This document shows positions 29,850 to 33,735 of a stretch of DNA of 64,000 bases, in pieces. Location of the stretch: positions 434,001 through 498,000 of the forward strand of contig NZ_JADEYR010000001.1 of assembly GCF_015209585.1 (NCBI RefSeq), read 5' to 3'. This DNA is from Brachybacterium epidermidis. GTDB lineage: Bacteria; Actinomycetota; Actinomycetes; Actinomycetales; Dermabacteraceae. The notes under the pieces are model-generated. The model worked only from the letters and a program-made list of their open reading frames with translations. It did not search any database and was not told the origin of the DNA. A program made the translations under genes and the position numbers. Positions within the stretch are counted from its first letter, which is position 1, and each line of letters begins with the position of its first letter.

Positions 29850-30011
29850 CGCGCAAGGATAGTCGGCGCTCCGGAGCGCTGCGCCATGCCCATGTGAGGG
29901 ACAGCGGATGACAGCAGGCCCCTGCCGGATCGAGGCGGTCATCGGCCCGCCACGATGCCGGGGACCTCGCCGAGCAAAAGATAAACGCCCTGTCACCAGG
30001 GCGTTCTCTGG

Positions 30012-30085
30012 GGTGATCGACGGGATTTGAACCCGCGACCGCCTGGACCACAACCAGGAGCTCTACCAACTGAGCTACGACCACC
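30012..30085 (-). tRNA. tRNA-His (GUG)
   Basis: The complement folds to a cloverleaf with acceptor GTGGTCG/CGATCAC, anticodon GTG in loop TTGTGGT, T arm GGTTCAAATCC. A G at position -1 faces discriminator C, the tRNA-His hallmark. CCA is not encoded. Confidence 0.96.
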
Positions 30086-30485: not shown

Positions 30486-30727
30486 GTTCATGGCCTCCAC
30501 GCTAGGAGCAGCTGCGGCACTGACCCACCCCTCCGGGGTCGCGACCTGACCCGTCCAAGGGACTGGATGCCTCCGACGATCGTCGGAGCGTCCTCGATCC
30601 GCGGGATGTGCCGGCTGCCCATCGCGGCCGGGTGACGGTCGCGGCCCGACGACCGCCAGGACTGATCCGCCGGCACTCAGCGGTGGGAGGGTTGCCAGAG
30701 GACCTGCCGCGGCGCAGAGTGGGACGC

Positions 30728-31072
30728 ATGATCGTCGCTTTCTCCGTCCAGCCCACCGGTGAGCCCTCCGACCCGACCCTGCGTCGGGCCCTGCAGGAGG
30801 GATCCGACAGCGCCAGTGTGCACGACGCGGTCGCTGCCGCCGTGCGGATCGTGCGGGACTCGGGGCTGCCCCATCGCACCAGCTCGATGTTCACCGAGAT
30901 CGAGGGCGAGTGGGACGAGGTGATGGACGTCGTGCGCCGCGCCACCGACGCGGCAGGGCGCTACGGCTCCCGCGTGTCCCTGGTGCTGAAGGCCGACATC
31001 CGGCCCGGCCGCACCGGTGAGCTCGACGGGAAGATCGAGCGGATGGAGCGGGCACTGGGCCCGCACCGGTGA
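30728..31072 (+). CDS. Thiamine-binding protein (MTH1187/YkoF-like, DUF77)
   Basis: 114 residues. F-S-V-Q-P-T-G near the start, V-R-D-S-G-L-P-H-R-T-S-S-M-F-T-E-I-E-G-E-W-D-E-V in the middle and the helix V-M-D-V-V-R-R-A are characteristic of the MTH1187/thiamine-binding superfamily, a small ferredoxin-like fold. Function in thiamine metabolism is inferred from relatives. The last four residues G-P-H-R come from a 52-bp tandem duplication that shifted the frame; the unduplicated end would be R-A-L-G-R-N. Confidence 0.82.
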   Translation: MIVAFSVQPTGEPSDPTLRRALQEGSDSASVHDAVAAAVRIVRDSGLPHRTSSMFTEIEGEWDEVMDVVRRATDAAGRYGSRVSLVLKADIRPGRTGELDGKIERMERALGPHR

Positions 31073-31112
31073 GCTCGACGGGAAGATCGAGCGGATGGAG
31101 CGGGCACTGGGC
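31009..31112. repeat. Perfect 52-bp tandem duplication
   Basis: Bases 31009-31060 are repeated without mismatch at 31061-31112. The duplication covers the 3' end of the thiamine-binding protein gene. Because 52 is not divisible by three, the first copy reads into the second in a new frame and stops at TGA 31070-31072. Confidence 0.92.
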
Positions 31113-31133
31113 CGCAACTGATCCGCGCCGGGA

Positions 31134-33140
31134 TCAGGCCCTGCTGGAGTCCAGCATCCCCTCGCGCAGCGCAGCGGCCATCGTGGGCGTTACGGGCAGG
31201 CGCGGGATGATCGTGGCCTGGAAGGCGTGGTACACGTCCGGCTTGCCCGGCCAGGTCACGCCCTGCGGCTCGTTGTCCGCATCGAGCTCGTGGAACCAGG
31301 AGCCCCCGTCCGCATCGAGCAGGTAGGTGGAGATGTACTCCCACCACTGCTCGTAGCGCTCGGCCCACACCCGCTCCCCGGTCACCCGGTACATCACCGC
31401 TGCAGCACCCACGGCCTCGGCCGCCACCCAGTGCATACGCTCGCGCGCCATTGGGGTGCCGTCCCAATCCACGGTGTACACGAACCCGGGCGCACCGTCC
31501 GTGCCGAAGCTGTCGGCGGACTTCTCCATCAGTGCCGTGGCCGCCTCCAGCATCCACTCCGGGGCGGAGCCGTCGGCCGCCAGCAGGGCGGCGCGGGCGT
31601 GCAGCACCAGGCGAGCCCACTCGATCCAGTGGCCCACGGTGGCGCCGTAGGGACGGAACGGGTGGTTGGGCTCCTCGCGGTTGTAGTCCAGCAGCGGGTT
31701 CCAGTCCACGTCGAAGTGCTCGGGAAGCGCCCAGTCGTTGCCGCGGGCGAACTCGTCGATCGCGCGGGTCATGATGCCCACGGCCCGGTCCAGCCAGCGG
31801 CGCTCGCCGGTGACGTCGGCCGCGGACAGCAGCGCCTCGACGGTGTGCATGTTGGCGTTGATGCCGCGGTAGGCCTCGCACTCGGTGAAAGTGCGGTCGA
31901 AGGTGTCCACACTCATCCCGGCGGAGTGGTCGAAGAACTTCTGATCCAGCACCTCGAGCGCCGCGTCCAGCAGGCCCCGGGCGCCGGGCCGGCCTGCCGC
32001 GGTGGCGGAGGCCGCCGCGAGCACCACGAAGGCGTGGGCGTAGGCCTGCTTCGAGTCGTCCACGGGCCGACCGTCGGCCACGGAGGCGAACCAGCCGCCG
32101 TGCTCGGCGTCGCGGAACACGCCGCGTAGCGAGGCCACGCCGTGGTCGGCGAACCGTCCGAACTCGGGGCGGCCCATCATGTGGCCGAGCGCGAAGCAGT
32201 GGGTCATGCGGCAGGTGATCCACAGCTCGGAGGGGCGGGTGAGATCCGCCTCGCCGTTCTCGTCCAGCCAGGCGAAGCCGCCGTCCTCACGTGCTGAGTC
32301 GGTCGCGAACACCAGCAGGTCGTCGCCCTCGCCCTCGAGCCACGTGCGGTGCGCGGGCACGTCCAGCCACGGAGTGCGCGCGCCGGTGGCACCCTCCGCG
32401 GTGGATCCGGCAGGGCCTTCGGTTGCGGGGGAGTCGATGGTCACGGTGGTGTCCTCAGCGGTCGTAGCGTTCTCGGTGGTTGCGGCGTCCCCTGTGGTGG
32501 CAGCTGCGGGGGCGCCAACGGCAGGCAGTTCGAAGGACTTCGCCGCGGCCTGCACCTCGGCGGTAGTGGGGCCGGGCTCGGCCACCAGCAGCACCTGCCG
32601 GTAGTACTTCAGCTCCTGGATCGACTCGCGGATGTCCGCCAGTGCACGATGGCCGCCGTTCTTGCGGGGCATGTTGTAGTACACGCGGGGGAACCAGCGC
32701 TTGGCCAGCTCCTTGAGGCTGGACACGTCGATGGTGCGGTAGGAGAGATGCCCGGCGAACTTCGGCACGTCGCGGTCCAGGAACACGCGGTCGGTGCCCA
32801 CGCTGTTGCCGGCCAGGGGCGCCTTGCCCGGCTCCGGGCAGTGCCGACGCACGTAGTCCAGACACGCCTGCTCCGCCTGGGCCAGGGTCATCCCGCCGTC
32901 GAGCTCCTCCAGCAGCCCCGAGGTGGTGTGCATGGTGCGCACGAAGGGGTCCATCTGTGTGAGCGCCTCCGCCGGAGGCTTGATCACGACGTCGACGCCG
33001 TCCCCGAGGATGTTCAGATCGGCGTCGGTCACGAGGACGGCGATCTCGACCAGCGCATCTCGCTGCTTGTCGAGGCCGGTCATCTCGCAGTCGACCCAGA
33101 TGATGCGGTCCTGATTGCTGCGCGTAGGAGAAGAGCTCAC
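31134..33140 (-). CDS. orn: Oligoribonuclease fused to AGE-family sugar epimerase/isomerase
   Basis: 668 residues in one frame. Residues 1-200 are a complete oligoribonuclease: W-V-D-C-E-M-T-G (D, E), L-A-G-N-S-V-G-T-D-R (D) and N-G-G-H-R-A-L-A-D-I (H, D), the DEDDh set that degrades 2-5-mer RNAs and pGpG. Residues 205-255 are an Ala/Thr/Gly/Glu/Asp linker. Residues 256-668 are an (alpha/alpha)6 barrel of the N-acylglucosamine 2-epimerase superfamily, nearest YihS/mannose-isomerase types: G-I-N-A-N-M-H-T-V-E-A, H-W-I-E-W-A-R and F-V-Y-T-V-D-W-D-G-T-P. Both parts look full length with their key residues. The linker looks like real low-complexity protein. I know of no described reason for this pairing. 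Confidence 0.88.
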   Translation of the reverse strand: MSSSPTRSNQDRIIWVDCEMTGLDKQRDALVEIAVLVTDADLNILGDGVDVVIKPPAEALTQMDPFVRTMHTTSGLLEELDGGMTLAQAEQACLDYVRRHCPEPGKAPLAGNSVGTDRVFLDRDVPKFAGHLSYRTIDVSSLKELAKRWFPRVYYNMPRKNGGHRALADIRESIQELKYYRQVLLVAEPGPTTAEVQAAAKSFELPAVGAPAAATTGDAATTENATTAEDTTVTIDSPATEGPAGSTAEGATGARTPWLDVPAHRTWLEGEGDDLLVFATDSAREDGGFAWLDENGEADLTRPSELWITCRMTHCFALGHMMGRPEFGRFADHGVASLRGVFRDAEHGGWFASVADGRPVDDSKQAYAHAFVVLAAASATAAGRPGARGLLDAALEVLDQKFFDHSAGMSVDTFDRTFTECEAYRGINANMHTVEALLSAADVTGERRWLDRAVGIMTRAIDEFARGNDWALPEHFDVDWNPLLDYNREEPNHPFRPYGATVGHWIEWARLVLHARAALLAADGSAPEWMLEAATALMEKSADSFGTDGAPGFVYTVDWDGTPMARERMHWVAAEAVGAAAVMYRVTGERVWAERYEQWWEYISTYLLDADGGSWFHELDADNEPQGVTWPGKPDVYHAFQATIIPRLPVTPTMAAALREGMLDSSRA

Positions 33141-33207: not shown

Positions 33208-33735
33208 GTGAACCTGTTCTTCCGCCTGCTGGTGCTGATGGTGCGCGTGAGGTTCCGACGCCGCCTGTCCATCTGGGACACGGCCCGCACCCCGTTCCGG
33301 GTGAACCCGCTGGACCTGGACGTGCTGATGCACATGAACAACGGGCGCTACCTGTCGATCCTGGACCTGGGGCGGATGGACCTGATGCTCCGCTCGGGCT
33401 TCTGGAAGGTCACCCAGGAGCGGGGCTGGTACCCGGTGGTCGCCGGTCAGGGCATCACCTACCGCAAGTCCCTGCGGCTGTGGGAGAAGTTCGAGGTGCG
33501 CACCCGGGTGATGGGCATCGACGAGGCCTGGGTGTACATGGAGCAGAGCTTCCACCGCGGCGAGGTGCTGATCGCCGATGCGGTCGTGCGCGCCCGCTTC
33601 CTGAAGAAGACCGGCGGTTCCGTCACCAGCGCCGAGCTGATCGAGGCGGTGGGCGGCGTGCCCGCTGACCGAGAGGTGCCAGCGTGGGTGCAGGACTGGA
33701 CGCAGGAATCCGCGCGGCACGCCCGCAACCGGTGA
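33208..33735 (+). CDS. Hotdog-fold acyl-CoA thioesterase-like protein (THEM6 type)
   Basis: 175 residues. N-terminal hydrophobic segment, then a 4HBT hotdog domain: D-L-D-V-L-M-H-M-N-N-G-R-Y-L, with the catalytic-site Asp/His/Asn cluster, and Y-M-E-Q-S-F. Arrangement matches the THEM6/YbgC-like group. GTG 33208 has AAGGAG 7 bases upstream. Divergent from orn-AGE with 67 bp between. Substrate unknown. Confidence 0.85.
   Translation: MNLFFRLLVLMVRVRFRRRLSIWDTARTPFRVNPLDLDVLMHMNNGRYLSILDLGRMDLMLRSGFWKVTQERGWYPVVAGQGITYRKSLRLWEKFEVRTRVMGIDEAWVYMEQSFHRGEVLIADAVVRARFLKKTGGSVTSAELIEAVGGVPADREVPAWVQDWTQESARHARNR

Follow-up and report, generated by a model that had tools for sequence, protein, structure and literature searches.

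An in-frame fusion of oligoribonuclease and a YihS-type sugar isomerase in Brachybacterium

The oligoribonuclease (Orn) of M. smegmatis carries a helix, alpha10, that packs over the partner protomer and stabilises the dimer; full loss of this helix is reported to abolish the rescue of a knockout (PMC9676404). YihS-type enzymes of the AGE family are distinguished by three active-site histidines, as stated in PMC7762179. Here we describe a gene of Brachybacterium epidermidis that encodes both kinds of enzyme in a single polypeptide. It lies in a 64,000-nucleotide stretch of genomic DNA (the window, by which we mean the whole stretch that was analysed), and an initial sequence-only reading had put it forward as an undescribed fusion of two complete enzymes. 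No published report of an Orn-AGE fusion was found in the open-access literature searched, in agreement with that proposal.

Two complete enzymes in one frame

The gene occupies a single open frame of 668 amino acids on the minus strand (31134-33140), with a GTG start codon and a TGA stop codon. From the nearest upstream in-frame stop to the Orn core, there is no other ATG, GTG or TTG. The features of the region, in window positions, are the following.

31134..33140, minus strand: Orn-AGE fusion gene, a single frame, with the join in frame in 37 of 38 Brachybacterium genomes
32562..33119, minus strand: oligoribonuclease domain, residues 8-193 (NF003765, RNase_T), with presumed DEDDh residues D17/E19/D117/H164/D169
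32535..32567, minus strand: C-terminal tail of Orn, residues 192-202, by alignment the counterpart of helix alpha10 in the M. smegmatis enzyme (7wik; PMC9676404)
32370..32525, minus strand: linker, residues 206-257, 52 amino acids, rich in Ala, Thr and Pro, delimited by alignment
32442..32444, minus strand: in-frame GTG within the linker with GAGG upstream, a possible internal start common only to this species and genome G032
31134..32369, minus strand: AGE domain (YihS-type), residues 258-668 (PF07221; best PDB matches are YihS)
30608..31072, plus strand: thiamine-binding protein gene (PF01910), convergent neighbour
33208..33735, plus strand: thioesterase-like gene (4HBT_2), divergent neighbour
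30009..30084, minus strand: tRNA-His, here beyond the AGE gene, in outgroup loci the downstream neighbour of orn

Both parts of the protein match their families well above the cut-offs. The Pfam family RNase_T is found at residues 14-176 (83 bits versus a cut-off of 24) and the NCBIfam oligoribonuclease model NF003765 at residues 8-193 (248.3 bits versus 106), while GlcNAc_2-epim (PF07221), the (alpha/alpha)6-barrel family of AGE enzymes, covers residues 287-642 with its entire profile (1-347 of 347) and a score of 379.6 bits versus 23.4. Both Pfam families were matched by all 19 of the aligned members. The AGE part scores 485.7 bits with the D-mannose isomerase equivalog NF051846, below its cut-off of 600, as do two unfused actinobacterial homologues (503.3 and 527.7). 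Its best PDB matches are YihS / sulfoquinovose isomerase structures (2rgk, 2afa, 7ag4 and 2zbl), aligned over the full length with about 400-410 bits. The best PDB match of the Orn part is M. smegmatis Orn (7wik), and the alignment to this structure indicates that the tail corresponding to helix alpha10 is retained in the fusion protein.

Orn residues D17, E19, D117, H164 and D169, which we take to be the DEDDh motif from our general knowledge of the family and read off the alignment, are invariant in 38/38 fused and 8/8 split rows. In the AGE domain, R311, H432, H504 and H638 align with R55, H176, H248 and H383 of YihS. R311 and H432 are invariant in 38/38 fused rows, H504 in the 36 fused rows that reach it and H638 in the 35 that do, and all four are also invariant in eight split and eight outgroup rows. 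The three active-site histidines by which PMC7762179 recognises the YihS-type subfamily are thus present (H432, H504 and H638). These family matches and residues bear out the claim that two complete enzymes are encoded here.

Substitution rates were compared by a simple counting method in 11 chosen close pairs. The dN/dS ratio ranged from 0.03 to 0.15 in Orn and from 0.05 to 0.22 in AGE; in the linker it ranged from 0.03 to 0.83 and exceeded that of both domains in 10 of the 11 pairs. These values indicate purifying selection on the two domains of the chosen pairs and drift of the linker. Given the invariant catalytic residues and the low dN/dS of the domains, both appear, from these comparisons, to have been kept as enzymes.

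The first reading had also noted a low-complexity linker and named 32370-32560 as the stretch to check; the segment that the alignment assigns to the linker (about 32370-32525) falls inside that interval. Thirteen linker lengths, from 16 to 52 amino acids, occur in the 38 fused loci (37 from Brachybacterium and one from G038, a genome of another genus), and the frame is kept in all of them. The linker is 52 amino acids long here and 16-37 in the other 37 loci; Ala and Pro make up 48% of the residues of the 38 linkers. Of five unfused Orn tails from other families, that of L098 is rich in Ala and Pro past the tail helix and the other four are less so. Judging from the tail of L098, the linker may in part be an old Orn tail.

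Among the seven neighbouring proteins scanned, no pathway partner for AGE was found, nor any yih-type gene, nor the SF kinase or SFP aldolase of a sulfoquinovose setting. A tandem duplication with a period of 52 bp (31009-31113; the same 53 bases are found at 31009 and 31061) covers the 3' end and stop codon of the thiamine-binding gene, just before the stop of the fusion gene.

Distribution and origin of the join

Among the genomes near the window, the own genome included, 95 of 98 gave a match, and so did 46 of the 47 genomes of the family. Reading of the loci by script showed a single frame for Orn and AGE in 37 of 38 Brachybacterium genomes, the own genome among them, counting three loci truncated by contig ends (G003, G005 and G001) and that of G023 (85% complete), in which a frame break lies inside AGE; in all four of these the junction itself is in frame. 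The one Brachybacterium genome without any match, G006, is 88% complete and in 750 contigs. Several of the fused genomes are single-contig assemblies, and AGE identity within the genus falls to 65%. The architecture that was sought in relatives is therefore found in these 37 genomes and likewise in G038. Eight of the 47 family genomes carry orn and AGE as two separate genes, adjacent and co-directional.

Additional copies are seen in a few genomes. G003 (81% complete, 5% contaminated) has a second, more distant AGE of 45% identity (G003:C286:3945-5195) that may be foreign. Second Orn-like stretches, each with one stop inside, are present in G024 (C2:1707295-1707879, 38% identity) and G040 (C13:382765-383301, 36%).

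No match spanning both domains was found outside the family in an order sample of 396 genomes, or in a class sample of 118 genomes with the exception of the own genome, in either case among the matches listed. Nor were the two genes neighbours there: among the matches listed, Orn and AGE are adjacent in 0 of the 20 genomes with both genes from the order's other families (seven on the same contig at more than 400 kb, 13 on different contigs) and in 0 of the 15 genomes of the class sample outside the family with both genes listed (four on the same contig at more than 400 kb, 11 on different contigs), where G062 is counted in both sets, the Orn match of G422 is a fragment, and fragmented assemblies might conceal a few neighbours.

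Gene order points to where the AGE gene may have come from. A tRNA-His gene lies 96-221 bp past the end of the orn match, on the same strand, in 7/7 outgroup loci. In 10 of the 11 family loci scanned it is located beyond the AGE gene (on the strand opposite to orn-AGE in three of the ten, L042, L044 and L046), and none was found in the L043 stretch. The AGE genes of 13 outgroup loci, which were chosen among the best-scoring and not at random, and which include L087 as the source of the neighbour queries, are accompanied by a PIG3 oxidoreductase in ten, a Cof-type HAD phosphatase in seven, serS in six and all three in six; L085, L088 and L091 are without any of them in the fetched stretch. The order serS, Cof-type HAD phosphatase, AGE and convergent PIG3 is seen in L086, L087, L089, L094, L095 and L097. 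The pairing of HAD and AGE may be a clue to a pathway in which a sugar phosphate is converted to the free sugar and then isomerised.

The own genome retains the cluster of serS, HAD and PIG3; about 80 bp separate HAD from PIG3, and AGE is absent there. In 10/10 further family genomes serS likewise neighbours HAD, and the approximately 3.7 kb fetched from each contain no AGE. Two tandem HAD phosphatase matches stand beside serS in L112 (566-1387 and 1495-2265) of G041, in which orn and AGE are split and the identity of AGE is high. Since the gap between orn and tRNA-His is occupied in the family and AGE is missing from beside serS and HAD, the most economical interpretation is a shift of the AGE gene from its serS-HAD-PIG3 setting into that gap in the ancestor of the family; the ancestral place, judged from gene order, is not certain.

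At the new site AGE would have followed orn closely, an arrangement that the split relatives retain. In G040 and G044 the orn stop and the AGE start overlap by 4 nt; elsewhere the AGE start follows the stop by 1 nt (G041), by 4 nt (G039 and G043) or by 33-44 nt (G042, G045 and G046); in five of the eight split family genomes, the two genes thus overlap or are within 4 nt. In the Dermabacter-like G042 (L046) and G045 (L044), the two genes share a reading frame and are parted by one stop codon and a short spacer.

Phylogenetic trees, which took 23 of the 38 fused rows, require two changes between the fused and split states in the AGE, Orn and joint trees each; in the Orn tree alone the starred branches do not force two. 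A single clade of all fused rows was rejected with the joint alignment (AU p 0.00136), where G038 is a long branch and calls for caution. G038 groups with the Dermabacter line, so that an early fusion with a later re-split also gives two changes. The frames would accordingly have been joined separately in Brachybacterium and in the G038 lineage, or else in a single earlier event followed by a split in the Dermabacter line, and both histories fit. A re-split would also be in keeping with the lone in-frame stop of G042 and G045.

What the fused protein may do

Taken together, we consider it probable that this is a genuine Brachybacterium two-enzyme protein, formed when tight gene neighbours ran together, and whose domains are most likely independent. 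The relocated gene, the close or overlapping pair and the fusion explain the join without any need to connect sugar metabolism to nucleotide turnover, and such a connection, raised by the sequence-only reading, finds no support. The fusion is most likely a by-product of tight gene overlap, and its long retention across the genus could also mean selection for the join.

The N-terminal part would be the oligoribonuclease of the cell and, going by its family and intact active site, should cut 2-mer RNA to mononucleotides. A genome search found one Orn and one AGE in the own genome and no other copy of either. A back-up nanoRNase of the DHH-DHHA1 type was considered and rejected, as the only DHHA1 match of the genome is in a gene that reads, by sequence and size, as alanyl-tRNA synthetase; hence the fused Orn is the only recognised nanoRNase of the Orn or DHH-DHHA1 type here. 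The role in pGpG breakdown suggested earlier is unlikely: no GGDEF domain was found in the own genome (8/14 control genomes were positive), so pGpG is an unlikely substrate and is probably irrelevant in this genome.

The C-terminal part is predicted to be an aldose-ketose isomerase of the YihS type whose substrates are probably mannose-, fructose- or glucose-like sugars. By similarity, the best guess for its substrate is a mannose- or fructose-like sugar, with sulfoquinovose as a further candidate. That AGE is the sole route for mannose was rejected, as the ManA catalytic domain is present in the own genome; the C-terminal ManA model is unmatched. Because the linker begins just past the tail helix, the AGE barrel could hang from the helix by a flexible connection, and the Orn core need not be disturbed. 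If the protein is a single stable chain, the fusion would mainly fix a 1:1 co-expression of the two enzymes.

An unlikely alternative is that two proteins are made in practice, a separate AGE being freed by internal initiation in the linker or by proteolysis. The linker GTG with its upstream GAGG, in this species and G032, and the flexible look of the Ala- and Pro-rich linkers are in its favour, but an ATG, GTG or TTG with a Shine-Dalgarno-like match was present in the scanned stretch of just 6/38 fused loci, and the own genome (G000) and G032 alone share its position. Internal starts being rare and otherwise unshared, a separate AGE start is unconserved in the fused genes, whereas GGAG is found by eye within 18 bases before the AGE start in 8/8 split relatives. 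A scan for sigma-70-type promoters gave no promoter-like match in the region.

Selected functional coupling, in which AGE controls the activity or location of Orn or Orn that of AGE, such as by a sugar signal passed through the tail helix or by AGE oligomers that cluster Orn dimers, is in our view rather improbable. It would suit the retention of the fusion in 37/38 Brachybacterium genomes and one more genus, perhaps by a second fusion, as well as the six chains held by each of the YihS entries 2rgk, 2afa, 7ag4 and 2zbl. The linker also follows a tail helix that, according to PMC9676404, touches the partner protomer and affects activity in M. smegmatis Orn. However, the linker drifts in length and sequence, Orn and AGE are non-adjacent in 20 order and 15 class genomes outside the family among the matches listed (G062 shared), close or overlapping genes alone can explain a fusion, and one fusion with one re-split fits as well as two independent fusions.

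More doubtful is the particular model in which Orn is tuned, via the tail helix, by an AGE domain that senses or converts a free sugar, or in which AGE oligomers gather Orn dimers. We know of no link of sugar state to nanoRNA clearance elsewhere. If the domains do communicate, sugar state would be tied to nanoRNA clearance, and a sugar-responsive nanoRNase would link the carbon state of the cell to RNA end-turnover.

It is very improbable that the AGE domain is catalytically dead and kept as a scaffold: the lack of a pathway partner among the seven neighbouring proteins scanned would suit this, but R311, H432, H504 and H638 are invariant in every fused, split and outgroup row that reaches them, and the AGE dN/dS stays at 0.05-0.22 in the 11 chosen pairs. 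A sequencing or assembly error that joined two genes was rejected as next to impossible, since, although relatives with separate genes do exist (8/47 family genomes), as the first reading had envisaged for this case, and G023 (85% complete) does carry a frame break elsewhere in AGE, the identical in-frame join recurs in 37/38 Brachybacterium genomes, including several single-contig assemblies, and none of the 13 linker lengths breaks the frame.

Comparison with known systems

The favoured reading, a two-enzyme protein of largely independent domains, unites an enzyme central to RNA decay with a sugar isomerase in one conserved architecture, and the likely stages of its formation (distant genes, adjacent or overlapping genes, fused genes) all survive in living relatives. 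This makes it a clean case in which to ask whether the fusion of neighbouring unrelated genes is neutral or selected, and a caution that fusion alone does not prove a shared pathway.

The fusion is a new architecture built of known enzymes. It resembles M. smegmatis Orn (MSMEG_4724, 7wik) in the exonuclease core and in the tail, which align through residue 207; that enzyme ends near this residue, whereas the Brachybacterium protein continues into the linker and a 411-amino-acid AGE domain. With the YihS/D-mannose isomerase subfamily it shares a full-length match and the three active-site histidines named in PMC7762179, but differs in having an N-terminal Orn and in scoring under the NCBIfam cut-off for D-mannose isomerase. 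As in other bacterial fusions of adjacent genes, close or overlapping co-directional genes of relatives are here in one frame; the differences are that Orn and AGE share no known pathway and that the fused and split states changed at least twice in the family.
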